A stretch of 64,000 nt of DNA from Geothrix sp. (GTDB lineage: Bacteria > Acidobacteriota > Holophagae > Holophagales > Holophagaceae). This document shows, piece after piece, positions 28,683-45,521 of the stretch; position 1 is the stretch's first letter, and every line of letters starts with the position of its first letter. Made by a program: the position numbers and the translations under genes. The DNA is taken from positions 1,426,001-1,490,000 of the forward strand of contig NZ_JAHRYQ010000001.1 in the NCBI RefSeq assembly GCF_020622065.1, given 5' to 3'. The notes below the pieces were generated by a model that was not told the DNA's origin, searched no databases, and was given only the letters and a program-made list of their open reading frames with translations.

Positions 28683-28703
28683 GACGAGGGCACTTCCTGT
28701 GCC
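28683..28703 (+). terminator. left half of a transposon-split terminator hairpin
   Basis: GACGAGGGCAC (28683-28693), loop TTCCT and the target duplication GTGCC (28699-28703) are followed directly by the transposon end. Joining GTGCC to CTCGTC at 45419-45424 restores a perfect 11-bp stem, GACGAGGGCAC with GTGCCCTCGTC, followed by CTATTT. This was probably the shared terminator of lutR and the convergent tRNA-Ile. In the occupied locus only five base pairs remain on each side. Confidence 0.8.
28699..28703. repeat. target site duplication, left copy
   Basis: GTGCC immediately outside the left terminal repeat, identical to 45414-45418. Five bases is the Tn7-family duplication length. Confidence 0.93.
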
Positions 28704-29214: not shown

Positions 29215-29496
29215 ATGTGGATCAAGAGCAAGGAAGGACTTTTCAACTCGACCGCCTACCGGTCCATCGTGGCGGAGCACTTCCAGCCGGAAGGCCCCGG
29301 GGACAAGCCGATGTCGGTCGTGGTCGGCCACTTCCTGGGCCAGAAGAAGCGCGACACGGGAGCCAACACCGAATCCGATCCCTTCGATGCGATCGCCATC
29401 TACGAAGGCGAAGGCTGCAGCTACAGGGCGGACCAGGCCATCAAACGGATCAGCACCCACCTCGGCTGGCATTCCAAGCAGTGTGATGTCGGATGA
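29215..29496 (+). CDS. small cargo protein, unknown function
   Basis: I do not recognise this 93-aa protein. It starts at ATG 29215 (MWIKSKEGLFNSTAYRSIVAEHF) with GAGGTG just upstream, and the frame is open to TGA at 29496. A central segment, MSVVVGHFLGQKKRDTGANTESDPFDAIAIYEGEG, looks like alternating beta strands and turns. No signal peptide, transmembrane helix or metal motif is visible. It is the first gene inside the left end of the transposon. Absence of homology cannot be tested here, so its reality rests on the start context and composition. Confidence 0.5.
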   Translation: MWIKSKEGLFNSTAYRSIVAEHFQPEGPGDKPMSVVVGHFLGQKKRDTGANTESDPFDAIAIYEGEGCSYRADQAIKRISTHLGWHSKQCDVG

Positions 29497-29653
29497 CCTG
29501 ACCAGCGGGGAACCCGCAGGGGTGACGGCTGGGCTTGGCCACGGGTGAAAACGCGTGAGAAGCCTGACCGCCACAAAGATCCCAAGGCCGGATGTGTGCG
29601 GATTCTAGCGATTCCGCACATGCCACCCTTGGGATGGGCCAAGGGGGCGTGCG

Positions 29654-30409: not shown

Positions 30410-30425
30410 ACCCTCTGTGGCTGGA

Positions 30426-30641
30426 TCAGTCGCTGATTTCCCGCAATTGGAAGCGACTCCCGGGTGAACCGGCGACAGGCATCAGATCAATCTCTTCGAT
30501 GTCGAAACCTTCCTCTTGCAGGCTTTCACGGGAAAATGCGATGGCTGCCTCGCGGCTGTCGAAGACCCCGAGTTCCGTTTCGGTGTCCGGATCCCAAGCG
30601 CCGTTGGGATTGGGATCGACTTCCAGCAGAACGATCTTCAT
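30426..30641 (-). CDS. small acidic cargo protein, unknown function
   Basis: The 71-aa product is strongly acidic (MKIVLLEVDPNPNGAWD, then TETELGVFDSREAAIAFSRE, ending FQLREISD). It has a beta-alpha-beta look and no membrane or metal motif. It is convergent with the repeat protein at 29654 and ends 16 bp from it. The next gene upstream on the same strand ends 27 bp away, so the pair may be one transcript. AAGGG lies upstream of the ATG. I do not recognise the family. Confidence 0.5.
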   Translation of the reverse strand: MKIVLLEVDPNPNGAWDPDTETELGVFDSREAAIAFSRESLQEEGFDIEEIDLMPVAGSPGSRFQLREISD

Positions 30642-30668
30642 GGGCGGCCCTTGTGGTGAAGCCCAATT

Positions 30669-31097
30669 CTAGTCCGAAACCGGCCCGGCCACTGACTTGC
30701 GCCTGTCCCTGGCCTTCTTCAGGGCTTCCCGCCGGTGTTTCGGGCAGTAGGTCAGCAGCCAGTCGCCCACCGAGCCGGTCATTCCGGGCTTGCCGCAGGT
30801 CTCGCAGATGGTGGCGGACTGTTCCTCGGCAGCTTCGGTCAGTTCAATCGCCTCATCGGACACGGACCCGCCAGTCAGGTAGAAGCGCAGGGTTCCGTAT
30901 TTCTCCTTCACCTGACAGGCGCGCATCGGCGCTTGGCCTTCAGCCAACTGCTGGCGGGCCATGCCCTCCAGGGCCGTGCAGAGGTCCCATATGAGCGGGT
31001 GCCAGCCCGGTCCCGCACTGAGGGAAAGGATCCGTTCCTTTTCCCCGAACAGGATCGGGAATGCCGCCGGGAAGGGCCTCCAGTCGATCATGCCCAT
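30669..31097 (-). CDS. small zinc-ribbon-like cargo protein, unknown function
   Basis: The 142-aa protein contains a probable zinc site near the C-terminus: CETCGKPGMTGSVGDWLLTYCPKH, with two cysteines, a 17-residue spacer, then Cys-Pro-Lys-His. The N-terminal part (MGMIDWRPFPAAFPILFGEKERI) and the segment VKEKYGTLRFYLTGG look globular. ATG 31097 is chosen because AAAGGA lies eight bases upstream; an earlier in-frame start at 31148 lacks a ribosome site. A basic tail (KKARDRRKS) could contact nucleic acid. I cannot assign a function. Confidence 0.55.
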   Translation of the reverse strand: MGMIDWRPFPAAFPILFGEKERILSLSAGPGWHPLIWDLCTALEGMARQQLAEGQAPMRACQVKEKYGTLRFYLTGGSVSDEAIELTEAAEEQSATICETCGKPGMTGSVGDWLLTYCPKHRREALKKARDRRKSVAGPVSD

Positions 31098-31148
31098 GTC
31101 CGGTGTCCTTTCAGGCGGCTGGTCTGTCAGTTCGTCGCGCGGCCCCAT

Positions 31149-31540
31149 TCTGAGCCGTCGAGGGGGTCTTGGGAGGGAGGTGGAATCGGCCCGGCGGACC
31201 CGCGGGGATCATGAGGCAATTGGTGGGCTCCAATTCCCGGACGTCCGCTCTAAGGTGGAAGCCTTGCCGGGGGTAGTCATGTGGCAGGGGCATCCCGGGA
31301 TTTCGATATGACCGGATGGCATATGGGTGCCGTATTCATTGAAGTTGGGCAAACCGTTTTCCATAAATATAAAACTTACAACACTTGAAACGGCATGACC
31401 CACCAGGTTTAGCGGTTGATTCCGGCGCGCGGAAAGAACACTATCTAAATGAACAGGCCACCCATTGGAACCCGAATGTCTTCCCCATTTCTTCATGCCA
31501 GTGCCGGATTCGGCACCGACCCCGTTCGTGCGTGGCCGTG
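31149..31540 (+). promoter_or_regulatory. intergenic region with candidate promoter of the vsr-dcm unit
   Basis: No gene is supported here. An AT-rich island at 31350-31385 stands out. TTGGGC at 31345-31350 and TATAAA at 31368-31373 are 17 bp apart and point towards vsr. The -10 is good but the -35 is weak. That would leave a leader of about 160 nt before vsr. The open frame before the Vsr start is not homologous to Vsr. Confidence 0.35.
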
Positions 31541-31966
31541 ATGGGAAAGGCGACCCCGCTGACACGATCCGAGGTCATGGCGCGAATCCGCGGCCGGGAC
31601 ACCTCGCCGGAACTGGCCCTGCGCAAGGAACTGCACGCGCGTGGTGCCCGCTTCCGGGTGGACTACCGGATCCCGGGGGTCGGAAGGGTCGACATCGCGT
31701 TCACCCGCCGGCGGCTGGCCATCTTCGTGGACGGCTGCTTCTGGCACTGCTGCCCGGAGCATGGGGTCAGGCCGAAAACCAACGTCGCGTTCTGGCGGGA
31801 CAAGCTGGACGGCAACCGGGCCAGGGATGCCAAGCAGGTCCTGGTGCTCCGGTCCATGGGCTGGTCCGTGATCAGGGTGTGGGAACACGACCTGGAGGCG
31901 GATCTGGCATCGGTCACCAGGACGGTATTGGAAGTGTTGCATTCACCTGAGGAAGACCATCAATGA
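31541..31966 (+). CDS. vsr: very short patch repair endonuclease
   Basis: The 141-aa enzyme belongs to the Vsr family, which nicks at T:G mismatches produced by deamination of 5-methylcytosine. The catalytic region is GRVDIAFTRRRLAIFVDGCFWHCCPEHG, with Asp51 and His69 at the positions of the E. coli Asp51 and conserved His. The N-terminal RSEVMARIRGRDTSPELALRKELHARG is also typical. ATG 31541 is chosen because Vsr proteins start at this point; GTG 31538 is an alternative. It overlaps the cytosine methyltransferase by ATGA, and the pairing of Vsr with a C5 methyltransferase explains its role. Confidence 0.92.
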   Translation: MGKATPLTRSEVMARIRGRDTSPELALRKELHARGARFRVDYRIPGVGRVDIAFTRRRLAIFVDGCFWHCCPEHGVRPKTNVAFWRDKLDGNRARDAKQVLVLRSMGWSVIRVWEHDLEADLASVTRTVLEVLHSPEEDHQ

Positions 31967-33573
31967 AGACCGATCGTTCGCATTGCTCACCGAAATCCGG
32001 CGTGGTGGAAGGCGCGGAGACGACGCCCGAACCGTCCAAGGCCAAGGTGAAGGCGCTCATGGCAAGGAAGCTCAAGCGGATCCAGGACGGGGGGGAGATC
32101 CGCACCCTAGACCTGTTCGCGGGCTGCGGCGGCATCGCCCTGGGTTTCCACGCGGCCGGCTACCAGACGGTCGGCGCGGTGGAGATCGATCCCTTCGCGG
32201 CGCTGTCCTTCGCCAGGAACTTCGGGAAGCACGCGCCCCACGCCGACCCGGCGACGCTGGGCCTCCCGAGGGACATCACCAAGCTGGACCCACCCGAATT
32301 CCTTGCGGGGCTGGGGATCAAAGGCCCCGTGGACGATTCCGTCGATGTCCTGGTCGGCGGCCCGCCCTGTCAGGCTTTCGCCCGTGTGGGACGGGCCAAG
32401 CTGCGCGAGGTGGACAGCCACCCCCAGGCGTTCAAGCAGGATCCGCGCGGGAACCTCTACCTGCGTTACCTGGCCTACATTCGGGCCACCCGGCCGCTGG
32501 CGATCCTGATGGAGAATGTGCCGGACGTCCTGAACTACGGCGGGCACAACATCTCCCAGGAAGTGTGCGAGATCCTGGAAGCGGAAGGCTATTCCTGCAA
32601 GTACACCCTGCTGAACAGCGCCTACTATGGCGTCCCGCAGATGCGTGAACGGATGTTCCTGGTCGCCATCCACGGCGTTGCCAAGCGCAGCTTCGAGTTC
32701 CCCAAACCGACCCACTTCGTGAACCTGCCTTCGGGGTATGAGCACACGCGGGTGGTGGCACTGAAGGCGACCCGTGGGGGTGGTGGGAGCCTTTTCAACG
32801 ATGACATCTTCAGCAGCGACGAAAACCACCTTGAACGGCCGCCCGTGCCCAAGGTTGGCCTCCCGCCGTCCATCACGGTGGAACAGGCGATCTATGACCT
32901 TCCGTTCCTTGACGCGGCCAAGCTGCTGAAGGACGGGGATCTGATCCGGGGCGCCAAGCGGTTCGACAAGCCCTTGCCCTACGGCAGCGAACCCCATACC
33001 GGCTACGCGCGCCTGATGCGGGAGTGGCCCGGGTTCGAGGCCAGGGACGGGGTGTATGACCACGTCATCCGCTACCTGCCCCGTGACTTCAAGCTCTTCA
33101 AGCGGATGAAGCCGGGGGACCAGTATCCCCAGGCGTATGCGATGGCCGTGACCATGTTCAAGGAGGAATACCGGAAGCTGCAGCGGAAGGGGCACGCCCC
33201 GGCCGAAGGCACCAAGGCATGGCAGGTGCTGTGGGATTCGTTCGTCCCACCCTATGACGCCAGCAAGTTCCCGAATAAGTGGCGGAAGCTGGAGGCCGAC
33301 ATGCCGTCCCGGACGCTGCTGGCGCACCTGGGCAAGGATTCCTATTCGCACATCCACCCGGACAACGGGCAGGGTCGGACCATCTCCGTCCGGGATGGCG
33401 CGCGCCTGCAGTCCTTCCCGGACGGGTTCCTGTTCGAGGGCACCATCAACCCGGCCTTCAAGCAGATCGGCAACGCGGTCCCGCCCCTGATGGCCTATGC
33501 GCTGGCCCGGAACATCCGCGCGGCGCTCGGGGCGAAGGAACTGAAGGACATCAGGGTCGGCTACATCCTCTGA
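31963..33573 (+). CDS. DNA (cytosine-5-)-methyltransferase
   Basis: The 536-aa protein carries all main C5-methyltransferase motifs. Motif I is LDLFAGCGGIALGFHAAGY (residues 49-67), motif IV GGPPCQAFARVGR with catalytic Cys136, motif VI ENV at 184-186 and motif VIII QMRERMFLVA. The late motifs are in RTISVRDGARLQSFPDGF and QIGNAVPPLMAYALA. A long target-recognition region lies between, about residues 240-440. The first 45 residues are a charged extension. It modifies one cytosine of an unknown sequence. The convergent McrB/McrC-like genes next to it are probably the restriction half. Confidence 0.93.
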   Translation: MKTDRSHCSPKSGVVEGAETTPEPSKAKVKALMARKLKRIQDGGEIRTLDLFAGCGGIALGFHAAGYQTVGAVEIDPFAALSFARNFGKHAPHADPATLGLPRDITKLDPPEFLAGLGIKGPVDDSVDVLVGGPPCQAFARVGRAKLREVDSHPQAFKQDPRGNLYLRYLAYIRATRPLAILMENVPDVLNYGGHNISQEVCEILEAEGYSCKYTLLNSAYYGVPQMRERMFLVAIHGVAKRSFEFPKPTHFVNLPSGYEHTRVVALKATRGGGGSLFNDDIFSSDENHLERPPVPKVGLPPSITVEQAIYDLPFLDAAKLLKDGDLIRGAKRFDKPLPYGSEPHTGYARLMREWPGFEARDGVYDHVIRYLPRDFKLFKRMKPGDQYPQAYAMAVTMFKEEYRKLQRKGHAPAEGTKAWQVLWDSFVPPYDASKFPNKWRKLEADMPSRTLLAHLGKDSYSHIHPDNGQGRTISVRDGARLQSFPDGFLFEGTINPAFKQIGNAVPPLMAYALARNIRAALGAKELKDIRVGYIL

Positions 33574-33600
33574 CGTGTTGGGCCTATCCGGCCCGGCCCA

Positions 33601-35262
33601 TCAGGCGGGTATGGGGGGCAGGACGGAAGCCAGGAGTTCCTGGACCTGGCTGACCCCCATGCCCGGTCGCATCGAGATGGCCCCGAACCGGTATTCCCGG
33701 TGGTATCCCTTCTGGAAGAACACTTCCGGTGAATCCGATTCCCGCCATTCCGCCCCCCGGTCCCTGACCTCCCGGTTGGGTGTCAGCAGGAACGCGCTTC
33801 GGATCGGGTGTTCCATGACGCCGCCAGCGCGAGCCATGACCAGGGCGTCCTTGTACATGTGGGTGGAGGCGATGGCGGAATCCAGCGCCTGTTCCACCCG
33901 GTATTTCGCGTCCAGGATCACCGTCGGGACCCACTTGCCAGGGGCTTCCACGTCGATCGCGATGTCCGGGTTCATGGGGCGGGAATAGCTTCCCACCGCG
34001 GGGGCCGGGACCTTCCAGATCTCCCCATAGGTCGGCTGGAAGGTCAGCCGGTAGGGGCCGAACTTGAAGGGTTTCGCGTCCAGTTTGACGGTGAGGCAGC
34101 CCTGGGACATCCGGTCCTCCAGGGTCTCCTTCCAGCCTTCCGCGCCAAGCAGTCCGGATGCCGCCCGGAGGATCCGAAGGAAGGACCAGAACTCATAGAG
34201 GTCGTAGGTCCGGTTGACGGGGATGTCCATGAAGTCGCCGGCGATGTCCCCGATGCCCGCCATGAAGGCCCGATAGGTCTCATGGAAGGTCCGGTAGGCC
34301 GGAACCCTACGGAAGACGTGGCTGGTCTGGATGCCGCCGTAGGTCGGCTTGACCCCATCGAACAGCGGCAGGGTGGTCAGCCGCATCAGGCGCTGGAGCA
34401 TGCCCGTGACGCGCTTGCGCATCAACGGTGGTGCCGGGCGGCGTTCCCTCTCCAGCCGATCAAGGGACTTCTGCACCCTGGCCAGGAATCCCTGCCACAT
34501 GTGAAGCACGGCGAGCATATCGGAATGCTCACGGCGCCTGTTGTCGGTCTGGAGGATGGTCCGGGAGACCATTTCGGGGTAACGCCCACCAAGACGATCG
34601 ATCACCTTCCGGACGGACGGTTCAAGGCGGTCCAGTTCCGCGTCCGGTAGGCGCTTGGCGCTTCGCAGCGCCCTTGCCAGGGCCATGGGCGTGGTGATCC
34701 CGCCATGTCCGAACGGGACCATCTTCTGATGCCGTTCCCCGTTCAGCCACGGGGCGCGGTCAATCTCTCGGACAGCGTGTTCCATCCTGCTGAACCAGCG
34801 GCTGAGGTATTCAAACCTGGCGATCTCGGGAGGGCGGTCCAGACCGCGATCGAAGCCGACCTTGTGTCCCGCGATCGACGCGATCGCCAGGGAATCATCG
34901 ATGATGTCCCCGATCATCTTCAGGTAGTCATCCCGCGTCAGCTTCGCCGTGGCGGGGTCGGTCGTGACCGTCACCTGCAGCGGGGCTTCGCCGGGACTGA
35001 CCAGCTTCAGTTCGGCAGTCCCGGCGTGGAATCCGATGGACCATGGCCACCACGCGCAGGTCGGCGACTTCGCGATGCAGACCAGTGGCTGGTCATTGAG
35101 GGACAGTTGCAGGGCGTAGACGTCCGTTTCCGGGGGATGGGTGGTGACCAGGTGGACATCCATGCCCTCCGCCAACCGCCCTTCCGGCACCGGATCGGTG
35201 GCCGGGTGGAGCTGGAACACTTCGCCATCCGGAAGGCGAAGGTCGATCCTGGCCTTGCTCAT
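33601..35262 (-). CDS. DUF2357 PD-(D/E)XK nuclease, McrC-like partner of the GTPase
   Basis: The 553-aa protein is of the DUF2357/DUF524 type found as the second restriction gene in LlaJI- and BsuMI-like systems. The N-terminal half is a DNA-binding-type beta domain plus helices. The C-terminal half has a PD-(D/E)XK site: Glu357 in YDLYEFW, Pro432-Asp433 in NPDIAIDVEA and Asp451-x-Lys453 in VILDAKYR. In these systems the McrB-like partner provides NTP hydrolysis and this protein cuts DNA. It starts at ATG 35262 in a four-base overlap with the GTPase gene. It is convergent with the methyltransferase, ending 27 bp from it. Confidence 0.85.
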   Translation of the reverse strand: MSKARIDLRLPDGEVFQLHPATDPVPEGRLAEGMDVHLVTTHPPETDVYALQLSLNDQPLVCIAKSPTCAWWPWSIGFHAGTAELKLVSPGEAPLQVTVTTDPATAKLTRDDYLKMIGDIIDDSLAIASIAGHKVGFDRGLDRPPEIARFEYLSRWFSRMEHAVREIDRAPWLNGERHQKMVPFGHGGITTPMALARALRSAKRLPDAELDRLEPSVRKVIDRLGGRYPEMVSRTILQTDNRRREHSDMLAVLHMWQGFLARVQKSLDRLERERRPAPPLMRKRVTGMLQRLMRLTTLPLFDGVKPTYGGIQTSHVFRRVPAYRTFHETYRAFMAGIGDIAGDFMDIPVNRTYDLYEFWSFLRILRAASGLLGAEGWKETLEDRMSQGCLTVKLDAKPFKFGPYRLTFQPTYGEIWKVPAPAVGSYSRPMNPDIAIDVEAPGKWVPTVILDAKYRVEQALDSAIASTHMYKDALVMARAGGVMEHPIRSAFLLTPNREVRDRGAEWRESDSPEVFFQKGYHREYRFGAISMRPGMGVSQVQELLASVLPPIPA

Positions 35263-36860
35263 GACCAGTATTGGAAGGACTCGAATTCATCGAGATCCTG
35301 CTTCATCTGGCGCACCTTCGCCAGGGACTTGGGCAGGCCCGCGAACAGGGTCTCCAACTGGTCGAGCACGCCCGAATGGCGCCTACTGCCCTTCAGCTTC
35401 GTGAGGATCTTCTGGTGAACCTGGACGTCCATGGCTTCGGCCGCCAGCAGGGACTTCGCATTGGCGAAACCCAGGAACTTCACCATCTCCTTGACGGTCC
35501 GGTACCCGAAGTGAAGCCCAAATGGCTCAAGTGCTGCGTGGAGGTCATTGATGAAGGCGCCGAAAGCGGCATCGCCCGCGTGCGCGCAGGCCGGATCTGA
35601 GGCGATGGCGGTCAGGTAGGTGGGGATGTCCACTTCGCTCATGTCGATCACGTTGGCCCGGTCCAGCAGCTTCGGGCTGAACGGCCGGGTGGTCTCGTCC
35701 ATGTTCACGGTGCCTACGATGTAGAGGTTCGCCGGCCATGGGATGGACTTCGGAACGCCGGCTTCCGCCTCGTCGACATCGTGCAGATGGATGTCGCCGC
35801 CCGTTTCCATCGCGCTCATGATGTCCGCGAAGTAGTGTTCGGGCTGGGCCAGGTTCATCTCATCGAGGCAGACGAACATCGGCATGTCCCGATTGGCGTT
35901 GGCCCTGATCAGGGCTTCCAGGAAGCGGGTGGACCGGTACTTCCCGGTCACGGAATCCAGGTAGCCCAGCAGGTGGGCGGGTTCGGTCCAGTCCGGCCGT
36001 ACCGGGATCAGCATGAAGTTGTCGTTGGCCAGCTTCAGGTCCGGGATTCCGACGACCGCATACGAATAGCATCTGGCCAGTAGGGTTTTGCCGGTCCCGG
36101 AGATGCCTGTCAGCAGGACGAAGTGCTTCTGCGCCTGATGATTCATGGCCACGTGATAGCGGTGGACCAGGGTATCGGGGAAGACCCCGCCCAGGTTCTT
36201 GACCCGTTTCACGATCTCCTTTGGGTCCACATCCGCCGGTTCAAGACCCACGCCCACGAAGGTCGCAGCCGTGGATGCGCCGGCCCTGGAGATCGGGACC
36301 GGGGGCAGGTGCTTTCGGATGAATTCAAGGTAGGAGATCTCAACCGGGTCCAGCGTTCCACCACGCTTCACGTCAGCGTAGTAGGCCATCGTCGGGGGGA
36401 CGCTGATGCCAATCCATGGATCGGCCAGATCGATGGATGTGGGATCCGAATCCGGCGTTGGGGTGACGGACCCGCCGGGCTGGCGAAGATACAGGGAACC
36501 TTCATGAAGATAGACGCGGACCTTGCTGGTGTCCCCGGCCTGGGCCTTGATCGCGGTCTGCCTTGCCGCCAGCGCCTTCAGGGCGGGCTTCCCCTTGTAG
36601 ACCAGGGCTAGATTCAGGAAACAGCCGTTGGGCAGGACAAATGTCGTCAGGAAGCTGAAGGGGGCGTCGGCATCCGCAAGCGCCTTGAAATCCACGTTGA
36701 GGATGTTGAACAGGCCGACTCGGACGCCATTCTCCATCGCGAAAGGGCCATTGCTGGCACTGAGGGCTTCCCGCTTGCCGGTGCGGGCGGTGGCGCCCGG
36801 AACCGACCGTTCCAGCCATTCCAGGAAAGTGCCGTATTCGTCTTCAGCAATGCTGGGCAT
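35259..36860 (-). CDS. McrB-like AAA+ GTPase of a restriction system
   Basis: The 533-aa protein has an MrcB-type N-terminal domain (about 1-190) and an AAA+ domain. Walker A is GISGTGKT at 252-259 and Walker B is FVCLDEMN with Asp333-Glu334. The McrB signature region reads VGTVNMDETTRPFSPKLLDRAN, with an MDE where classic McrB has NTAD. McrB-like subunits assemble as hexamers and power DNA translocation for a nuclease partner, here the next gene. ATG 36860 has GGAGT six to ten bases upstream and is preferred over 36938. This with the methyltransferase and Vsr resembles a LlaJI-type GTP-dependent restriction-modification set. Confidence 0.88.
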   Translation of the reverse strand: MPSIAEDEYGTFLEWLERSVPGATARTGKREALSASNGPFAMENGVRVGLFNILNVDFKALADADAPFSFLTTFVLPNGCFLNLALVYKGKPALKALAARQTAIKAQAGDTSKVRVYLHEGSLYLRQPGGSVTPTPDSDPTSIDLADPWIGISVPPTMAYYADVKRGGTLDPVEISYLEFIRKHLPPVPISRAGASTAATFVGVGLEPADVDPKEIVKRVKNLGGVFPDTLVHRYHVAMNHQAQKHFVLLTGISGTGKTLLARCYSYAVVGIPDLKLANDNFMLIPVRPDWTEPAHLLGYLDSVTGKYRSTRFLEALIRANANRDMPMFVCLDEMNLAQPEHYFADIMSAMETGGDIHLHDVDEAEAGVPKSIPWPANLYIVGTVNMDETTRPFSPKLLDRANVIDMSEVDIPTYLTAIASDPACAHAGDAAFGAFINDLHAALEPFGLHFGYRTVKEMVKFLGFANAKSLLAAEAMDVQVHQKILTKLKGSRRHSGVLDQLETLFAGLPKSLAKVRQMKQDLDEFESFQYWS

Positions 36861-37172
36861 CTTGACTCCGACCACACTCGTTTTCAGACCAGTTGACCGC
36901 TGGAGCCTACCATCTGGGGCTGTGGACCGCAAAGTCACATATCCTGTCCATTCCCATTGAAATCGATGCGAATGCCACGTGGTTCAACCCTTCGCATCCG
37001 GTGCCATCCGAAGCCCCGCGACTGGCGCAGGTTTCAGGCGAACAACCGCGGCCGGCCTAGGTCCACGGGCCAGGATTGTGGAATGGGGATTCCCTGCGGT
37101 GTGTGTCGATTTCTACACGGATGGCGCGCAAAAGTGGGCTGGGTGCGTGTCTTGGGGGCAGAATCCGCTTCG
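36861..37172. other. intergenic region with left copy of an 18-bp direct repeat
   Basis: No gene is supported between the divergent GTPase and zinc-finger genes. The stretch contains ACTGGCGCAGGTTTCAGG at 37021-37038, which recurs with one mismatch after the zinc-finger gene. It must also contain promoters for both divergent genes, but no clear hexamers were found. Confidence 0.5.
37021..37038 (+). repeat. 18-bp direct repeat, left copy
   Basis: ACTGGCGCAGGTTTCAGG; the partner at 38819-38836 differs only at the sixth base. Similarity extends weakly upstream (CC-AAG-CCC pattern). The pair brackets the low-GC zinc-finger gene. Confidence 0.7.
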
Positions 37173-38789
37173 ATGCGTAGACTAACCCTTGAAGACATGA
37201 AAGCCCTTGCCCGCGAACGGGGTGGGGAGTGCGTGTCAATCGAATACAAAAATGCTCGCACAGACCTTCGATGGCGATGTTCTGAAGGGCACGAATGGGA
37301 AGTGGTCCCCTCCAACATAAGGACGGGAAGCTGGTGCCCCTATTGCAAAGGCAAAAGGATTTGGTCACCCGGGAAAACCGAATCGGAAGCCCGGTTGGAT
37401 AAATGCCGTACCCTTGCCAAGGCGCGTGGTGGAGCTTGCCTTTCGGATCAATACGGTGGTGTGAAGGTAAATCTTTTGTGGCGCTGTAGCGATGGACACA
37501 AATGGGAAGCGACCCCGGCAAATGTGCAAAGCGGTTCGTGGTGTCCGCAATGTTCTGGTGGATTGAAAGAGGAATTTTGTCGTGCAGCCCTTGAATCCCT
37601 GACGGGAAAAGCCTGGCCGAAGGCGAGACCGGCTTGGCTTGTGAACGAACGCGGTGGGCGCATGGAACTGGACGGTTATTGCAAGGATATCGGAGTGGCC
37701 TATGAATATCAGGGCGAACAACATTTCAGTGAAGTGAAACACTTCCGCAGTGGGGAATTCGCACTGGCACTTCGCATGGCTGATGATCAACGCAAGCGTG
37801 ACCTGTGTCATGCGCATGGCATCAAGTTGATCGAAGTCCACCACAGCGTTCGCCTTGACGAAATGTTGCCGTATCTTGCAATTACACTTTCGGAAAAAAC
37901 GGGTGTAATTGTTCGGATTCCAGAAGGTCTGACCGTTGATTCAATGGGCTACGATCGTGGTTTTCTTGACGGACTCCGCGTGTTGGCCAGAGAGCGTGGT
38001 GGGGACTGCCTTTCCTCGTCATATGGTGGCGGAATGACAAACGTGCGTTGGCGATGCGCCGAAGGTCATGATTGGGAAGCGACCCCGGCCAACGTCCAAC
38101 GGGGTTCGTGGTGCCCATATTGTCAGGGGTTCAAAGTCTGGTCACCCGGACAGACCGAAGCACAAGCGCGGCTGACAGAATGCCAAACTATTGCAAAAGA
38201 ACGTGGTGGGTTATGTCTATCTGAAACATACATTGAACAGCGTGGAAAACTTCGCTGGCAATGTTCAGAAGGACATAATTGGGATGCGAAGACGGTTGAG
38301 ATAAAAAAGGGGTCCTGGTGCCCCTTCTGTGTGGGAAAGAAGGTGTGGTCGCCTGGGCAAACAGAATCTGATGCCAGGTTGGAGGAATGCCGATCAATTG
38401 CCAAAACGCAAGGTGGCGACTGCCTTTCGTCTGAATATGTAAACAGAACATTGAACCTGCAATGGCGTTGTTCTAATGGACATGAATGGGAAGCAACGCC
38501 ATCGAACATCAAACGAGGTTCATGGTGTCCTATTTGTGCGCGCGATGCACAGCGCGGCTCAATCGAGGAATGCAATTCAATTGCGCGCAGTCGCGGTGGA
38601 ATGTGTGTTTCGACTGAATATCTTGATGCTCTTAGCAAGGTCCGTTGGCGCTGCTCTCAGGGCCACGAATGGGATGCAAAACCAAATAGCGTTAAGCGGG
38701 GATCATGGTGTCCAACCTGTTGGAACAAGAATCGAGGCCGGGCCAGTCGGGAAGGGTGGGCCACGCGCCGAGAACGACAGGAACCATAA
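37173..38789 (+). CDS. six-repeat treble-clef zinc-finger protein with embedded endonuclease-like domain
   Basis: The 538-aa protein has six copies of a 45-50-residue unit (RGGxCxSxxY ... LRWRCxxGHxWxATPxNxxxGSWCPxC). Each contributes two Cys pairs plus His, as in treble-clef or zinc-ribbon modules of phage and mobile-element proteins. Between units two and three, about residues 125-235, sits a domain with ELDGYCKDIGVAYEYQGEQH and KRDLCHAHGIKLIEVHH. It resembles the Vsr-like EDxHD/PD-(D/E)XK nuclease fold (acid, then E-x-Q, then a late E-x-H). A DNA-binding nuclease is inferred. Base composition is visibly more AT-rich than the rest of the element. ATG 37173 is a compromise; ATG 37197 is also possible. 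Confidence 0.7.
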   Translation: MRRLTLEDMKALARERGGECVSIEYKNARTDLRWRCSEGHEWEVVPSNIRTGSWCPYCKGKRIWSPGKTESEARLDKCRTLAKARGGACLSDQYGGVKVNLLWRCSDGHKWEATPANVQSGSWCPQCSGGLKEEFCRAALESLTGKAWPKARPAWLVNERGGRMELDGYCKDIGVAYEYQGEQHFSEVKHFRSGEFALALRMADDQRKRDLCHAHGIKLIEVHHSVRLDEMLPYLAITLSEKTGVIVRIPEGLTVDSMGYDRGFLDGLRVLARERGGDCLSSSYGGGMTNVRWRCAEGHDWEATPANVQRGSWCPYCQGFKVWSPGQTEAQARLTECQTIAKERGGLCLSETYIEQRGKLRWQCSEGHNWDAKTVEIKKGSWCPFCVGKKVWSPGQTESDARLEECRSIAKTQGGDCLSSEYVNRTLNLQWRCSNGHEWEATPSNIKRGSWCPICARDAQRGSIEECNSIARSRGGMCVSTEYLDALSKVRWRCSQGHEWDAKPNSVKRGSWCPTCWNKNRGRASREGWATRRERQEP

Positions 38790-38818
38790 GACCCCACATG
38801 ACCCGCCCAAGACCCAGA

Positions 38819-38836
38819 ACTGGTGCAGGTTTCAGG
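38819..38836 (+). repeat. 18-bp direct repeat, right copy
   Basis: ACTGGTGCAGGTTTCAGG, 17 of 18 bases identical to 37021-37038, located 30 bp after the zinc-finger gene stop. Confidence 0.7.
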
Positions 38837-38934
38837 GGTTATCGACCTCGCGTAATTTTTGCGAAAAATAGCTGGCTCACGAGTTGAAATCATCTCTGTA
38901 TGCTTCCTAGCCTGCGAGCTAATGGGAGCTGCCG

Positions 38935-39297
38935 ATGCCTGAGCCTGAAGACCTCCACCCGCCTTTCGTACGAAGGGATTCCGCGCTGCAGGCAGCCCAG
39001 GAAGGCATGCTGATCGCGGCGCTTCGCGACATCGAATGGGGCGGAATGATGGGGCGCGGGCACTGCCCCGCCTGCGGCGCGCTGAAAAAGCACGGTCACA
39101 TGAGCGCCTGTATGGTCGGACTGGCGCTGACGCCTGACCATGGCGCGGCGCAACTGAACCAGGCGGTCACGGACGCGATCCGGGACATCGGCACCCGGCG
39201 GCGGTCCATCCAGGTGGTGGTCGGCGCGTGCAGTTCCGAACTGGATGACCTTGAGGGCTGCCTCACGACCATCCAGGACCTTCTGCACCTGTTCTAG
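38935..39297 (+). CDS. small CxxC/GH-motif cargo protein A, unknown function
   Basis: The 120-aa protein has one probable metal site, CPACGALKKHGHMSACMVGLAL, with the pattern C-x2-C-G-x5-GH-x3-C-x-VG-x-A. A helical C-terminal half follows (DDLEGCLTTIQDLLHLF). GGGAG seven bases before ATG 38935 supports the start. The next gene encodes a protein with the same motif and length, so the two are paralogues from a tandem duplication, although the remaining sequence has diverged. I do not recognise a family. The position just upstream of the transposition genes is a possible hint at a link with them. Confidence 0.6.
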   Translation: MPEPEDLHPPFVRRDSALQAAQEGMLIAALRDIEWGGMMGRGHCPACGALKKHGHMSACMVGLALTPDHGAAQLNQAVTDAIRDIGTRRRSIQVVVGACSSELDDLEGCLTTIQDLLHLF

Positions 39298-39306
39298 GGG
39301 GTGACC

Positions 39307-39666
39307 GTGTTTGACGACCAGCCCCAGGATTGGGGATCACCGGATGATCCGCCGGTTTCCGTCGGTCTTCGGATCCTGTACACCGTCACGGAACGGATGC
39401 AGTTTGTGGGACCCCCGAACGAGGAACGGTGCTTGGCCTGCGGCTCTGGGCCTGTCCGAGGTCATGCCTGGCAGTGCCCTGTGGGACGCGCGATGGCCAG
39501 CACGGAACCCACGCGCGATGCGTTGCTGGGCTTCGTGTGGGACACGCAGTTCGTGGCGGCTTCGGCAAGGCGGGAACTGCTGATCCCGTTGGCGCTCTTC
39601 ATGAAGGGGTTCGATCAACTTGAGAGGAAGGTGACGCGCGTGCTGGATCTGATGCCGCGCACGTAA
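39307..39666 (+). CDS. small CxxC/GH-motif cargo protein B, paralogue of A
   Basis: The 119-aa protein repeats the motif of its neighbour: CLACGSGPVRGHAWQCPVGRAM. It lies nine bases after the preceding stop, so the two are co-translated. GTG 39307 is chosen because AGGGGG lies five bases upstream, while GTG 39301 overlaps that ribosome site. The C-terminal half is helical with a heptad-like pattern (ELLIPLALFMKGFDQLERKVTRVLDLM), matching the placement of the helix in protein A. Function is unknown. A zinc-stabilised small dimer is a reasonable guess, not shown. Confidence 0.6.
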   Translation: MFDDQPQDWGSPDDPPVSVGLRILYTVTERMQFVGPPNEERCLACGSGPVRGHAWQCPVGRAMASTEPTRDALLGFVWDTQFVAASARRELLIPLALFMKGFDQLERKVTRVLDLMPRT

Positions 39667-39963
39667 GGAAGTACGGGGGCGCTTTTCTGGTCCGGACCTG
39701 GGATGGCGGACGAGAGGGCGGAAGGGGTCGGCATTTCGTGGAATCGGATTTCGATCCGTACACACGAGCGTCGCGATTGATCAAGGGCGTGAATGCCCGC
39801 GATCACCACGCGTGCGAACCCGCTTGCCTGCCCTCTCTCTCAGATTTCTGCTGCCGCTTAACCACCAACTAGGCTTATCAAACGCGGCCCCCCCGCAGCT
39901 TGCCCGGCGGAACAGTGGTAGCGCAAGTGAAAAATTTCAATGATTTACTGAAGGATATCTAAG
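39667..39963. other. intergenic region upstream of the transposition operon
   Basis: No gene, CRISPR repeat or guide-RNA-like array is visible. The last 60 bases are AT-richer (39925-39963) and lead into AAGGAT at 39951-39956, the ribosome site of tnsAB. The transposase promoter is probably here, but no consensus pair is convincing. Confidence 0.5.
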
Positions 39964-42714
39964 ATGTTGGCTTTACATGAACTTGAAGAACTGATGGAAC
40001 GGCTCGGAATGCCTGATTTCGGCCGCCAGCTCGTCCGGAAGGCCCGGAATGAAGCCCCGGTCCGCAAGGTCCAGTCCCATCTGTCGAACGTCATCACCCT
40101 GTTCGTCAGCCAGAAGATGGCCCGTTCCATCGCCACGGAAAGCCGGACGGTCGAATACCCGGCGGTGATCACCTACGAACGGGACGCGTCGGTCCTGGAA
40201 TACTTCGCCCAGCCGGTGAAGCTGAAAATCAACCAGATGGACGCGAACGGGAAGAAGTGCAGCTTCACGCACACACCGGACTTCCTGGTGGTTCGCAGGG
40301 ACGGGATCCTGATCGAGGAATGGCGTGAGGAGGAGCGCCTGCTGGCGCACGCCGTGAAATACCCCGGCCGCTATGTCCGTGAGGAGGACGGCTGGCGTTC
40401 GCCCTTCGTCGAAGAACAGCTTGCCGCAATGGGAATCACCTATCGCCTGCGGTCCGCCGACGAGCACCCCCGCTGCTACATCCGCAACCTGATCTTCCTG
40501 GGGGACTACCTGGATGCGGGTGGCAAGGCGTCGAACCCTGCGGTGGCGAAGGTCCTTCTGGGCCTTTTCTCGGACCGCGCCGCCATCCACCTGCGGGAAG
40601 TTCTGAATACGGAAGGGGTCTCGCCGGATCACGTCTATCAGGCGATCGCCGATGGCCTGCTGTCCTTCGACCTGATGAACGACGACATCGCGGAGACCGA
40701 CCGGGTCCAGGTGTTCCGGGACGAAACGACCATGCTGTTGCACCGCAAGGTGGGAATGGCGCCCATCGGGGAATCTGTGGAACGCCTGGATGCTTCGATC
40801 GCCACAGGCGGAATGCTCCGCTATGACGGGCAGGACTATGAGATCGGCCCTGTGGGCAAGGAGAAGGTCATCCTGAAGTCCGGGGCCGGGGCGGTTGAAA
40901 TGCCCCTGACCTGGGTGGAACAGCACTACCGGAACGGGAAGCTGTCCCTGGCGTCCACACACAAGGCATCGGACGCCATCGCGATGGCCACGGATCTGCT
41001 GAACGGTATCCACCCGAAGCATCTGGATACTGCCCTTCAGCGGGCCGAATGGCTGGAACAAGCCCTTGTCTCACCTGAAACCGTGCCGTGCTCCACGCGC
41101 ACCCTGCAGCGCTGGAAGAAGTCAATGCGGGAAGCGGGTGACAGCGTCATCGACCGTCATCTGGCGATCGCACCCAAATACGCGAACAGCGGCCGCCGCG
41201 AACGGCGCCTGTCGGAAGCCGTGATCGCCCTCATCGCCAAAACCGTCCGGGAGAAGTACAACACCCCGACGAACGTGAACAAGGAATGGAACTACATGGA
41301 CTTCGTGGCGGCCTGCATCGGCGCCGGGGAGGACCCCTGTTCCCGCCGGACCTTCGTGAAGGAACTGGCCAAGCACGGGTCCGTCTACCTGCGGGAAGGT
41401 AAGCGCCGGGCCTACCAGAAGGCTCCGATCGTCCATTACCTTGACCTTCATGAATCGATCCACGGGGTCAGGCCGTTCCAGGTCGTCCACATCGACCACA
41501 CGGAACTCCAGATCGAGTTGACGATCCCAGGTTCCAAGGAATCCTTCGGGCGTGTCTGGCTGAGTCTGGCCATGGATGCGGAATCGCGGGCGATGGTTGG
41601 CTTCTACCTGAGTTTCGAATCCCCCAGCTACCGGTCCTGCATGATGGTGCTCCGCGACATCGTCCGCCGTCACGGCCGGATGCCGGAGATGCTGGTCCTG
41701 GACAACGGCAAGGAATTCCATTCCCGTGCGATGAGGCGGGTGTGCCTGCTCTACGGGACCACACTTCGCTACCGGCCCGCCTCAAAGGCACGGTTCGGGG
41801 GGGTGCTGGAACGGCTGTTCGGAACCACCCAAAGCCAGTTCATCAACAATCTGGCGGGTAACACCCAGGTGCTCCTGCACGCCCGGCAGGCTACCAAACG
41901 GGTGATGCCATCGAACTTCGTCGAATGGACCCTTCCGGCGCTACACGGCGGCCTCGACTACTACTTCACGACGCTGTACGGGAAGGAACCGCACCCCACC
42001 CACCAGGACGGTCCCGTGGAACACCTGGCGATGCGTATGACCGAGACCGGGGAGCGGCGCAACCGGTTGGTGAACCTGGACCACCGCTTCCGGGTCGAGA
42101 CATGCCCGAGTCCCGTGGATGGGGAGACGCGGAAGGTGAACGGCCAGCGGGGCGTGAAGATCCAGCACATCTGGTACTGGTGCGATGCCTTCCGTGACCA
42201 GACGCTCGCTCGCCAGAGCCTCTCCGTCCGAGTCGATCCCTGGGATGTCCGCTTCGTGTTCATCCTGATCGGGCGGGAATGGCACCGCTGCCGGTCCAAG
42301 CTGGCATGGCTCGTGGAAAGCTACACCGAGGTTGAGCTTCGGTATGCCTGTGAGGAACTGGCCAAGAGGCACTCGGTCCAAAAGAAGAAGCTCAGCCCCG
42401 AGCGCTTGGCCGAGTGGTTGAAGGTCAGGGAAGCCGTGAACTTCGATTCGCGGTTGGCCATTACCCAGGCAGAAGCCCGCCTGGTCTACGACCCCCTTGG
42501 GATGACCAGCGTGCCGGGAACGGTGGTGACCGCAGAAACCGACGGGACGGTGGATATGGGGATGGAGACCCGGTTGGATCACTCGAAAACCAACGTCACC
42601 CCGTTCCGAAAAATCCGGAAGCGACCGGAACCGGCCAGAACGCACATCAACAAGCCCTGCGCGAGTGCGCAGGAGATCGAAGGGAGCATGGATGAAGACT
42701 ATGACCTGCTGTGA
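39964..42714 (+). CDS. tnsAB: TnsA-TnsB fusion transposase
   Basis: The 916-aa protein joins the two Tn7 transposase subunits. The TnsA part (about 1-240) has Glu79 in SVLEYFAQP, Asp106 in HTPDFLVVRRDG and the segment LIEEWREEERL where E-x-K is expected; no Lys is present, Arg121 being the nearest. A winged-helix TnsA C-domain region follows. The TnsB part (about 370-916) has a DDE integrase core: Asp511 in VVHIDHTEL, Asp580 in LVLDNGKEF and Glu616 in GVLERLFGT. TnsB cuts the 3' ends and joins them to the target; TnsA cuts the 5' strands to allow cut-and-paste. SD AAGGAT precedes the ATG by eight bases. It overlaps tnsC by 23 bp. Confidence 0.92.
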   Translation: MLALHELEELMERLGMPDFGRQLVRKARNEAPVRKVQSHLSNVITLFVSQKMARSIATESRTVEYPAVITYERDASVLEYFAQPVKLKINQMDANGKKCSFTHTPDFLVVRRDGILIEEWREEERLLAHAVKYPGRYVREEDGWRSPFVEEQLAAMGITYRLRSADEHPRCYIRNLIFLGDYLDAGGKASNPAVAKVLLGLFSDRAAIHLREVLNTEGVSPDHVYQAIADGLLSFDLMNDDIAETDRVQVFRDETTMLLHRKVGMAPIGESVERLDASIATGGMLRYDGQDYEIGPVGKEKVILKSGAGAVEMPLTWVEQHYRNGKLSLASTHKASDAIAMATDLLNGIHPKHLDTALQRAEWLEQALVSPETVPCSTRTLQRWKKSMREAGDSVIDRHLAIAPKYANSGRRERRLSEAVIALIAKTVREKYNTPTNVNKEWNYMDFVAACIGAGEDPCSRRTFVKELAKHGSVYLREGKRRAYQKAPIVHYLDLHESIHGVRPFQVVHIDHTELQIELTIPGSKESFGRVWLSLAMDAESRAMVGFYLSFESPSYRSCMMVLRDIVRRHGRMPEMLVLDNGKEFHSRAMRRVCLLYGTTLRYRPASKARFGGVLERLFGTTQSQFINNLAGNTQVLLHARQATKRVMPSNFVEWTLPALHGGLDYYFTTLYGKEPHPTHQDGPVEHLAMRMTETGERRNRLVNLDHRFRVETCPSPVDGETRKVNGQRGVKIQHIWYWCDAFRDQTLARQSLSVRVDPWDVRFVFILIGREWHRCRSKLAWLVESYTEVELRYACEELAKRHSVQKKKLSPERLAEWLKVREAVNFDSRLAITQAEARLVYDPLGMTSVPGTVVTAETDGTVDMGMETRLDHSKTNVTPFRKIRKRPEPARTHINKPCASAQEIEGSMDEDYDLL

Positions 42715-43774
42715 CATCGACCCCCGCACCATGAGCCGGGAGGAAGCGCTGACGCTGTCGGACGCCGACAAGATCAAATACTTCAAGCTTGTCCGCCTGA
42801 AACACCCCCGAATCGCGGAAACCTTGAACGAGATGACCCTCCGGGCCACATCGGACATGGGGAAGGGCATCGTCCTCCTCATCGGGCCTACCGGTGTCGG
42901 CAAGTCCACCCTGATCAAAACCCTTGGGGAGCAGATGATCAGCAGGGAACGTGCGGAGATCGATGCCGACCCTTCCTATGTTCCGGTGGCGATGATGGTC
43001 GCACCGGCTTCTGGGGGTCCCGGCTTCTCCTGGAAGATGTTCTATTCGGTCCTGGGGAAGGCCCTGCGGGAACCGCTGATGGAGAAGAAGCTTGAGACCA
43101 GGATCGAGGGGGACAAGACCTTCGTTCGCCTTCCGGGATCAGGAAGCACGCTGGCCGGGATGAAGCTGGCGGTGGCCGACATCATCAAGTCCCGCCGAAC
43201 GAAACTGGTCGTGGTCGATGAGGCGGTTCCCATGCTCCGCCCAGCCCCCGGGAACAGCCTTGAAAACCACATGGACACCATCAAGACCATGGTGGACAAC
43301 GACATGACCCTGGTCCTGGTTGGTTCTTACGACCTTCTTGAACTCGCCAGCAAGGGCGATCAGGTGGCAAGGCGTTCGGCCATTGTCCATTTCCGCCGTT
43401 ACCTGACCGGGATCCCGGAGGACGAACGGGCGTTCCGGAAGGCGCTGCAGCAGTTGCAGAAATTCATGCCCCTCCAAGACATGCCGGACCTCACCGACCG
43501 GGCCCTGGAACTCCAGACCACCTGCATCGGATGTGTCGGCATCCTCAAGACCGTCCTTCTCTCCACCCTTAACAGCGCCCTGCACAACGGTGGGAAATGG
43601 TCCGAATCGCACCTTGAGAAGGCCCAGTTCAGCAGGGCACAGTTCACCAAGATCATGACCGCGACCCTTAGCGGGGAAGCCAGCATCCAGGATTCCGAAC
43701 TTGGTTCGGGGACGTTCGAGGCCCTGATGGCCCAGGCGAAGTTGATCGAGACCATGCGCCGGGGTATCGCGTGA
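42692..43774 (+). CDS. tnsC: TnsC AAA+ transposition regulator
   Basis: The 360-aa ATPase links target selection to the transposase. Walker A is GPTGVGKST at residues 65-73. Walker B is KLVVVDEAVPML with Asp176-Glu177, and the sensor region is LVLVGSYDLLELAS. TnsC forms filaments on DNA and bridges TniQ to TnsB. ATG 42692 is preferred over upstream in-frame codons because AAGGGAG (42680-42686) lies five bases before it. The gene begins inside tnsAB and ends in a GTGA overlap with tniQ, so the three proteins are translationally coupled. The C-terminal 60 residues are helical, as expected for the TnsB-contacting end. Confidence 0.92.
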   Translation: MKTMTCCDIDPRTMSREEALTLSDADKIKYFKLVRLKHPRIAETLNEMTLRATSDMGKGIVLLIGPTGVGKSTLIKTLGEQMISRERAEIDADPSYVPVAMMVAPASGGPGFSWKMFYSVLGKALREPLMEKKLETRIEGDKTFVRLPGSGSTLAGMKLAVADIIKSRRTKLVVVDEAVPMLRPAPGNSLENHMDTIKTMVDNDMTLVLVGSYDLLELASKGDQVARRSAIVHFRRYLTGIPEDERAFRKALQQLQKFMPLQDMPDLTDRALELQTTCIGCVGILKTVLLSTLNSALHNGGKWSESHLEKAQFSRAQFTKIMTATLSGEASIQDSELGSGTFEALMAQAKLIETMRRGIA

Positions 43775-45135
43775 TCGATCCTGAAGACGAATGGGGCTTG
43801 GATTGTCCGGGGACCGGATTCGAATTGCCGCCCCGATCGCCCCTCATCCGCCTTCAGCCTCTTGGTCTCGGGACGCCCGACAGGGAATGTCTCAGCAGCT
43901 ACTTCCTGCGCTTGGCCGATGCCCACCGCCTTTCCCCGATGATGCTGGCCAGGGAGATCCTTTTCCCCGAACGGATCAAGGAAGGTGTCCTGCGCACCAA
44001 CCACTTCGATTGCGCCTGGAAACGTCCTTTCTTCAATGGAATCGGGGTCCCATGCCAGGTGTGGGTCCCGCGCCTGAAAGAACTCACGATGGTGGACGGG
44101 CTTGAACGCCTCACCCTGGGGTTCCTTGACAGGCTGTCCACCCGTGGACTTGTCAGCGCCAAATCCCGGTGGTGCCCAGCTTGCTTCCGAGAGGACCAGG
44201 AACGCGGAATCCCTTACGGGCGACTGATCTGGTGCATCGAAGCCGTGACCTGTTGCCCGAAACACGGGAACAAGCTGGTAGAACGGTGCGGTTGTGGGCC
44301 TGATGAGGCGCAGGCCCCGGGGATGATCAAGTGTCTGCCGCACATCTGCAATCAATGCGGTCGGAATCTCGGACTGGAAAACGGCAGGGGATCTGACCTC
44401 CCTTCGGAAAAGGACCTCAGGCACAGCCGGATGGTGGCGGATCTGCTGCTGAGTGAGCTTCCGGCGCCGGATCAGCCATCAAGTCGGGACATCGCCGATT
44501 TCCTGAACGAATCGCTGACGACCTATGCCAATGGGAATGCCATGGCCCTTGGCCGGCTCCTTGGGGTCGGCAAATCCACCCTGCATGGATGGCTTCATCG
44601 CGGGCATACACCTGGATTCACGGAAATTATGATGATCGCGGAAGCACATGGGTGTTCGATCTCGGATGTCATATGCGGACGTTCCGAAGCCGTGACCACG
44701 AGCCCGATGATCCCCAAGTCGATCCGGACGGCGAAAAAGCGACAGAAGAAGAAGCCCAGAAAGCTCAATTGGGACACCATCATCAAGCGCTTGAAGGAAA
44801 TCCTTGAACAGGACCCGCCCATCAATGTGGCTGAAGCCAGCCGGCGCGTGGAGGTGTCCTACGATCTCCTCAAGAACAAGGAACCCGAGATCTGCTCAGC
44901 CATCACCGCAAGGTGGATGATCTGGCAGAGATCCCTTGTGGTGCAGAGGGATGAGGAGCTTGCGGAACGGGTCCGGTTGGCCGCACGCCAGATGGCGGAA
45001 AGCGGTATCCGCCCGACTTGGCGACGACTTCAAGATGAAGGGTTGCTTGCCGGGTCCCCTTGGAGAAGCAGAGTCGCCCTAAGAGGGATGTGCAAGGACA
45101 TCTGGCTGGAATTCCACCCATCAGGTGGAATCTGA
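43771..45135 (+). CDS. tniQ: TniQ/TnsD-family target-selection protein
   Basis: The 454-aa protein starts at GTG 43771 in the tnsC stop. Residues 1-200 are the TniQ domain: PDRECLSSYFLRLADAH, then zinc ligands in WCPACF (Cys135, Cys138) and CCPKHGNKL (Cys162, His165), then a second cysteine cluster about 173-196. Two helix-turn-helix regions follow, about 264-292 (MALGRLLGVGKSTLHGWLHRG) and about 345-375 (INVAEASRRVEVSYDLLKNK). It is longer than CRISPR-linked TniQ proteins and closer to TnsD, which binds a specific attachment site. Being the only TniQ, and next to a tRNA gene, it may recognise that gene; this is inference. Confidence 0.9.
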   Translation: MIDPEDEWGLDCPGTGFELPPRSPLIRLQPLGLGTPDRECLSSYFLRLADAHRLSPMMLAREILFPERIKEGVLRTNHFDCAWKRPFFNGIGVPCQVWVPRLKELTMVDGLERLTLGFLDRLSTRGLVSAKSRWCPACFREDQERGIPYGRLIWCIEAVTCCPKHGNKLVERCGCGPDEAQAPGMIKCLPHICNQCGRNLGLENGRGSDLPSEKDLRHSRMVADLLLSELPAPDQPSSRDIADFLNESLTTYANGNAMALGRLLGVGKSTLHGWLHRGHTPGFTEIMMIAEAHGCSISDVICGRSEAVTTSPMIPKSIRTAKKRQKKKPRKLNWDTIIKRLKEILEQDPPINVAEASRRVEVSYDLLKNKEPEICSAITARWMIWQRSLVVQRDEELAERVRLAARQMAESGIRPTWRRLQDEGLLAGSPWRSRVALRGMCKDIWLEFHPSGGI

Positions 45136-45342
45136 AGCGCTGAAGGTTCGCTGCCAATGCGGAGCCTTCTGTTTCAGACGAGCGCCCTTCTGCCAACTCG
45201 GAGGATAGGGTAGGGGGCAAAGCCCCCCGTCCCGAATCGTTGGCCATCGAAAGGCTGACCAGAGGAAAGGTGACTTCACCCCCCTGGCGTGAGCCCGATT
45301 CCTTGGCTAAGTCCAACAGATAAGACTTCCGGGCGGTCCGGG
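45136..45342. other. gene-free stretch between tniQ and the right-end repeats
   Basis: No gene is supported. GGGGGCAAAGCCCCCC at about 45214-45229 is a short hairpin that may terminate the tns operon. No extra TnsB-type site, CRISPR repeat or tRNA-like guide was found. Confidence 0.5.
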
Positions 45343-45413
45343 AACAATAGTTTGTCGTTCCCTGCCTTGGAACCATAGTTTGTCGTTTGCGACAAACTAT
45401 GGTTCACGACACA
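45343..45413. repeat. transposon right end: terminal repeat and opposed internal sites
   Basis: The terminal site on the minus strand reads TGTGTCGTGAACC then ATAGTTTGTCGC and occupies 45389-45413. Two further copies, AACCATAGTTTGTCG at 45371-45385 and AACAATAGTTTGTCG at 45343-45357, point the opposite way. As a result 45371-45404 is a perfect 15-bp inverted repeat around a 4-bp centre. Tn7 right-end sites normally all share one orientation, so this layout is unusual. Confidence 0.85.
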
Positions 45414-45418
45414 GTGCC
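45414..45418. repeat. target site duplication, right copy
   Basis: GTGCC immediately outside the right terminal repeat, identical to 28699-28703. Confidence 0.93.
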
Positions 45419-45424
45419 CTCGTC
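45419..45424. other. right half of the transposon-split terminator hairpin
   Basis: CTCGTC directly after the right target duplication completes the stem that begins at 28683. Together with GTGCC it is the exact complement of GACGAGGGCAC. Confidence 0.8.
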
Positions 45425-45445
45425 CTATTTCGCAATCCGGCGAAA

Positions 45446-45521
45446 TGGTGGCCCCGGTGGGGTTCGAACCCACGACCAAGCGGTTATGAGCCGCCAGCTC
45501 TGACCGCTGAGCTACAGGGCC
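45446..45521 (-). tRNA. tRNA-Ile2 (CAU), probable transposon attachment gene
   Basis: On the minus strand the 76-nt gene runs from GGCCCTGTAGCTCAG to CCGGGGCCACCA with CCA encoded. The acceptor stem pairs with one G-U, the T loop is TTCGAAC, and the anticodon loop CTCATAA contains CAU. The GGCCC acceptor resembles E. coli ileX, whose CAU anticodon is modified by TilS to read AUA. Distinction from Met rests on that similarity. The transposon's right target duplication ends 27 bp past the tRNA 3' end. A hairpin ATTTCGC/GCGAAAT (45427-45446) lies between them. Confidence 0.88.

Follow-up and report, generated by a model that had tools for sequence, protein, structure and literature searches.

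What places a transposon just past an intact transfer RNA (tRNA) gene? The question is raised by a locus of Geothrix sp. (contig NZ_JAHRYQ010000001.1, positions 1,426,001 to 1,490,000; hereafter the window, meaning the whole 64,000-nucleotide (nt) stretch analysed), in which a Tn7-like element ends close to a gene for tRNA-Ile2(CAU). A first-pass annotation of the window had proposed that the element homes to this gene through its only TniQ protein. With high confidence, we conclude that it is a Cas-free Tn7-like transposon of the cut-and-paste type, belonging to the TnsAB-fused, tRNA-homing branch, whose TniQ acts as a TnsD for tRNA-Ile2 and whose relatives have shifted to other RNA genes. 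There is strong support for homing to RNA genes at a nearly constant distance, and it is very likely by reading small RNA genes that the targeting protein finds safe sites for insertion.

A complete Tn7-like element beside tRNA-Ile2(CAU)

The element is complete, spans positions 28704-45413 (16,710 bp) and is flanked by a 5-bp duplication, GTGCC, at 28699-28703 and 45414-45418. Its terminal inverted repeats are TGTGTCGTGAAC, starting at 28704 at the tRNA-distal end (28704-28728, plus strand), and the inverse ending at 45413. The 26-nt arms of this inverted-repeat pair, which include one flanking base, are 88% complementary. The termini read TGTG/CACA, and several TnsB-type sites are present. 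At the distal end these form a repeat family of spaced, AACCATAGTTTGTCG-like sites at 28736, 28822 and 28852 (28736-28875, plus strand). In the tRNA-proximal end (45343-45413), sites at 45343 and 45371 are joined by the terminal inverted copy, and together they form a perfect inverted pair, GAACCATAGTTTGTCG..CGACAAACTATGGTTC. All core genes read rightward, in the order TnsA-TnsB fusion (39964-42714), TnsC/TniB AAA+ ATPase (42665-43774, assigned by Pfam) and TniQ (43771-45135). The element ends 278 bp after the TniQ stop codon; beyond it come GTGCC, a 27-bp spacer and the CCA of the tRNA gene, which lies on the minus strand (45446-45521).

When the flanks were joined with one GTGCC, they matched two genomes of the genus over their whole length without a gap (409 of 422 positions in G032 and 407 of 422 in G062; an 882-nt version was also searched). 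This identifies the element as an insertion that left the tRNA gene untouched and confirms the duplication, of which the uninterrupted sites have a single copy. Many other genomes of the genus gave separate matches to the left gene and to the tRNA. The tRNA 3' base is separated by 27 bp from the duplication and by 32 bp from the element end, which bears out the first-pass estimates of about 30 bp to the end and 27 bp from the CCA to GTGCC.

ARAGORN prints 'Met' for the target gene, a label that reflects the CAU anticodon only, and Rfam also calls a tRNA there (68.1 bits). Among the matches listed (five of 785 records), the gene is 86.8% identical over its full 76 nt to Escherichia coli genes annotated as tRNA-Ile, and the one E. 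coli match that was fetched has a CAU anticodon. A control CAU tRNA at 20126 matched E. coli tRNA-Ile over 56% of its length only. Since a tRNA-Ile annotation is here combined with a CAU anticodon, the window gene and its E. coli match are both tRNA-Ile2, as the gene had been named initially.

The presumed target selector, TniQ, is encoded by an open reading frame (ORF) of 454 amino acids (aa), with a TniQ domain (PF06527, E-value 6e-17) and a CI-like helix-turn-helix at residues 258-304. Residues 8-420 aligned with the TnsD of PDB 8v32 (E-value 5e-38), as did positions 9-421 of a profile made from the window protein and six relatives (E-value 1e-62). Because the profile alignment spans these positions, the C-terminal part of TniQ belongs to the TnsD match. 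At an E-value of 0.001 or below, the window TniQ was the sole TniQ match in its own genome, and with the near-full TnsD alignment its description as a lone TniQ of TnsD length stands. The TnsAB protein (916 aa) has a TnsA-like N-terminal part, an rve core and a Mu-type C-terminal part. The N-terminal part scored 25.0 bits against a TnsA-like Pfam family, just below the cut-off of 26.5, and residues 6-825 matched chain M of 9bw1 (E-value 4e-136). We take 8v32 and 9bw1 to be the I-B2 transpososome of PmcCAST on its tRNA site; the literature searched for the two codes yielded nothing relevant. Judged from sequence, the element combines a fused TnsAB, an AAA+ TnsC and a TnsD-length TniQ with a putative C-terminal DNA-binding part. 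An AlphaFold model from a seven-row TniQ alignment was poor (mean predicted local distance difference test score of 51) and confident mainly from about residue 331. A scan of viral_contigs with TniQ confirmed nothing.

Related elements end past different small RNA genes

A family search with the TniQ profile over 77 genomes gave 10 places in eight genomes. Eight of these places have an element end at a distance of 27-32 bases downstream of the 3' terminus of a small RNA gene. The gene is tRNA-Ile2 once, tRNA-Pro(UGG) twice, tRNA-Leu(CAA) once and transfer-messenger RNA (tmRNA) four times. Counted to the RNA 3' base, the distance is 32 bases in the window, 29 and 28 bases at the tRNA-Pro(UGG) sites of G022:C35 and G009, and 29 bases at the tRNA-Leu(CAA) site of G161, for which a placement two bases closer is also possible. 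The tmRNA sites have distances of 28 bases in G007 (apparently Geothrix fermentans DSM 14018, with which it shares a contig), 27 in G022:C64, 29 in G011 and 30, two N included, in G436, and Rfam also identified the tmRNA at three of the four. Only pieces of TniQ are present in G009 and G011. Identity to the window TniQ is 49% for the Pro-type protein and 45% and 41% for the tmRNA-types. It had been suggested that close TniQ homologues might lie at the same distance from tRNA-Ile(CAU) genes: the distance recurred but the gene did not, its place being taken by tRNA-Pro, tRNA-Leu and tmRNA. A search for close relatives inserted at unrelated sites, away from any tRNA, found none: eight of the 10 places lie beside an RNA gene, and the other two have no placed RNA gene.

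Genome G000 has 47 tRNA genes (RF00005). With one tmRNA added to the count, a six-base band past each gene covers 288 of its 3,348,603 bp. By our own arithmetic with these 48 RNA genes, a given end falls in the band with a chance of about 9 in 100,000 per end. Even if the tmRNA cases share ancestry, chance falls far short of explaining hits on four different RNA genes within one family. All eight sites have CCA and the T-loop GTTC in common, and six of them have GGTTCGA (AGTTCGA in G009, GGTTCAA in G436). These T-loop letters, however, occur in most tRNAs.

The end that faces the RNA gene is also shared. An inverted site pair was found at the RNA-facing end in all eight family sites, starting 7-9 nt in and with 0-2 mismatches per 15-nt arm. 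The distal end of the window element, the only distal end read in the pair test, has no inverted pair (five mismatches at best). With up to three mismatches, the end palindrome of the window occurs in three of 47 genus genomes, always at one of the placed tRNA genes; this search misses tmRNA-type ends. The TniQ side faces the tRNA in the window, G022:C35, G009, G161 and the more distant G413. The TnsAB side faces the tmRNA in G007, G022:C64 and G436, and the TniQ side does so in the G011 remnant.

According to passages of PMC11406308, the 'right' end is by convention the one upstream of the tns genes, and the end with overlapping sites appears nearest the attachment site. The tRNA-side end of the window element lies downstream of the operon and is 'right-like' through its perfect inverted TnsB-type pair. 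The first-pass comparison with Tn7, in which the right end is nearest the target, therefore fits in the sense of the site pair and not in that of gene order, because here, unlike in Tn7, the end facing the tRNA is the operon-distal one.

A more distant set of 11 loci was also retrieved, nine of them acidobacterial and two from Caballeronia. In G413 the element end lies 29 bases from tRNA-Gln(CUG) and has a similar pair, with two mismatches and a longer loop. On the Caballeronia M1242 chromid it lies 28 bases from a CAT tRNA, which may be Met or Ile2, and no pair there is as good (four mismatches). The same chromid contains two related TnsAB-TnsC-TniQ sets in a row (L063, 12142-31078), where the record has no annotated feature.

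Several points weigh against the reading that these elements home to RNA genes. Two of the 10 family places (G022:C28 and G015:C67) have no placed RNA gene, and Rfam found nothing in the stretches examined. The Ile2 target is a single insertion. Both ends, the duplication and the uninterrupted site are established for the window only, the relatives having been placed by one end each, by eye and motif, and two of the eight supporting places (G011 and G009) are TniQ remnants. Distal ends with a matching duplication were sought in five relatives, and none was convincing. Nine of the 11 distant loci have no tRNA gene in the stretches read; their ends are undefined, so they count neither for nor against.

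In the trees, several forks of which are open, G007 and G022:C64 (both tmRNA) form one clade with G022:C28 and G015:C67. Two further tmRNA cases, G436 and the long-branched G011 remnant, fall outside this clade, which suggests that the tmRNA target is ancestral or was gained more than once. Between the window TniQ and that of G022:C35, the C-terminal region is the most diverged (36% versus 59% in the TniQ domain). For G007 and G022:C64, which share a target, the values are 57% versus 74%. We did not adopt the view that target choice tracks the C-terminal domain, for which these values argue weakly, as the region diverges in this same-target pair too. That one Tn7-like lineage repeatedly re-aimed a single TniQ between unrelated small RNA genes, tmRNA included, with the rule of about 30 bp kept, and that a tmRNA attachment site is not yet in print, is a tentative proposal to which we give slightly less than an even chance. 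If true, the re-aimed lineage would be a natural series that might yield a protein code for RNA-gene target choice.

We propose that the C-terminal helix-turn-helix part of TniQ would bind the 3' part of the tRNA-Ile2 gene, and that its N-terminal domain would recruit TnsC. End-bound TnsAB would then carry out the insertion about 30 bp downstream, duplicating 5 bp and setting the inverted-pair end toward the RNA gene, and the tRNA would be left intact. Related TniQs would have moved to tRNA-Pro, tRNA-Leu and tmRNA while distance and facing end were kept. This scheme presumes an active element.

Alternative explanations for the placement

Could something other than the RNA gene be recognized? 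The joined flanks of the window (28683-28703 with 45419-45424) read GACGAGGGCAC-TTCCT-GTGCCCTCGTC, a perfect 11-bp stem that encloses TTCCT and may be a terminator, and the insertion splits its 3' arm. Hairpins were also seen by eye at the G161, G007, G011, G009 and G436 sites, as might be the case if a hairpin terminator or palindrome were the real target and the tRNA merely nearby. We consider this very unlikely, since no such hairpin was seen by eye in G022:C35 (Pro) or G022:C64 (tmRNA), where the distance is nevertheless kept, and the window palindrome has no second copy in G000 within three mismatches. Even less probable, in our view, is random insertion followed by selection, by which elements at harmless sites past RNA genes survive. 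Such sites are indeed tolerated, as in G063 and G067, where other DNA separates the left gene from the same tRNA-Ile2. Survival nevertheless leaves unexplained the band of 27-32 bases and the same facing end in eight of 10 places, when about 9e-5 is expected per insertion.

We give equally little credence to insertion directed by a CRISPR (clustered regularly interspaced short palindromic repeats)-type guide RNA, as in V-K elements with tRNA-matching spacers. Passages of PMC11406308 describe tRNA genes as most of the V-K attachment sites. However, no Cas family was found in the 13 element proteins scanned with Pfam or the nine scanned with PADLOC (some small ORFs lay outside these scans), no CRISPR-like array was present among the direct-repeat families listed (20 of at least 60), and TniQ is of TnsD length. 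By the same Pfam and PADLOC scans, we rejected assignment of the element to the CRISPR-associated transposons (I-B2, I-D or V-K).

Relation to known elements

Members of the Tn5053/Tn402 family typically lack TnsA, carry a resolvase gene and use res-site targets. The window element has a TnsA part and no resolvase in the 13 element proteins scanned with Pfam, and it was not placed in this family. Nor was it assigned to prototypic Tn7 (TnsABCDE, glmS), as it has a TnsAB fusion and a tRNA-Ile2 site instead. It resembles Tn7 in its fixed distance past a conserved gene, its 5-bp duplication and its close-packed end toward the target (passages of PMC11406308). Tn7 differs in having separate TnsA and TnsB, TnsE and a glmS target, and the window operon is oppositely oriented to its target.

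The element kind itself is already known, namely the TnsAB-fused tRNA-homing branch. Passages of PMC11406308, describing Hsieh and Peters, derive the I-B2 and I-D elements from a TnsAB-fused subfamily in which TnsD uses different tRNA genes. The fused TnsAB and the various tRNA targets are found here as well. The spacing of about 30 nt is also shared, at 32 in the window and 27-30 in the seven others, four of them at tmRNA. In an assay described in part of PMC10293859, the TnsD of CyCAST (type I-D) inserts about 30-33 nt downstream of tRNA-Leu, close to the 27-32 found here. CyCAST carries an I-D CRISPR system, whereas none was found in the window element. PmcCAST (type I-B2; TnsAB, TnsC, TnsD), whose TnsD targets tRNA-Val according to passages of PMC12719977, is like the window element in its fused TnsAB and in the nearly full-length TnsD homology to 8v32/9bw1. 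Unlike PmcCAST, the window element has no Cas genes found and no second small TniQ, and it uses another tRNA in another phylum.

The first-pass suggestion of a possibly new target is thus narrowed: the TnsAB-fused branch already has published cases of protein-guided tRNA homing, and Ile2 with a Cas-free element may still be new. Possibly new as well are the Cas-free acidobacterial lineage and the tmRNA target. Our literature search returned no Tn7-like element tied to tRNA-Ile and no TnsD tied to ssrA, and none of the matches listed in a further search mentioned tmRNA. Among the elements that PMC10121019 reports at the tmRNA locus of E. coli are transposons of unspecified type, and the study uses TniQ annotation to detect Tn7-like elements; the passages concerned link neither to the other. 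Because of this content, Tn7-like use of tmRNA may already be known, which makes a novel reading less probable. Protein-guided tRNA homing is extended here to a Cas-free acidobacterial lineage, and tmRNA may join the landing sites of Tn7-like elements. Domain swaps between the closely related full-length TniQs, with placed and differing RNA targets, could test how TnsD recognizes its site.

Other features of the loci

Directly after the TniQ stop in G022:C28 lies a CCA-ending sequence (L013, 14574-14622) that by eye resembles the 3' half of an initiator tRNA. It is perhaps the scar of an integrase island, and Rfam makes no call there. In G022:C54, two Tn7-like element ends, one with spaced sites and one palindromic, are exactly 5 bp apart with CAGTG between them (L062, 3445-3451). 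A tandem insertion at tmRNA was rejected for this locus, because the 5-mers on either side differ. About 21 kb in G063 (L096-L097) and about 5 kb in G067 (L098) separate the left gene from tRNA-Ile2; neither genome has a TnsAB or TniQ match, and Pfam found no integrase in four ORFs of the intervening DNA. Copies of the stem stretch at the window site (about 27-33 bp, 88-100% identical) occur in further genomes of the genus, with some copies lined up in rows next to the tRNA.

The cargo at 31385-36938 reads as a restriction-like set of apparent defence genes. Pfam and PADLOC scans identified a Vsr-type endonuclease (31385-31966, plus strand; start codon uncertain) and a C5-cytosine DNA methyltransferase (31963-33573, plus strand). 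These are followed by a DUF2357/PDDEXK_7 nuclease (33601-35262, minus strand; Pfam) and an AAA ATPase (35259-36938, minus strand; Pfam), which PADLOC matched as candidate PDC-M26A. Two neighbouring small ORFs before TnsAB (38935-39666, plus strand; 120 and 121 aa) have no Pfam family and no relatives in the fetched loci. They are probably cargo and were not counted as core genes. A treble-clef zinc protein of 610 aa (36957-38789, plus strand), identified by Pfam and its repeats, also belongs to the cargo and has no copy in the fetched related loci. It contains DUF4379 in six stretches of diverged treble-clef zinc repeats, and its DNA repeats are often 207 bp apart.

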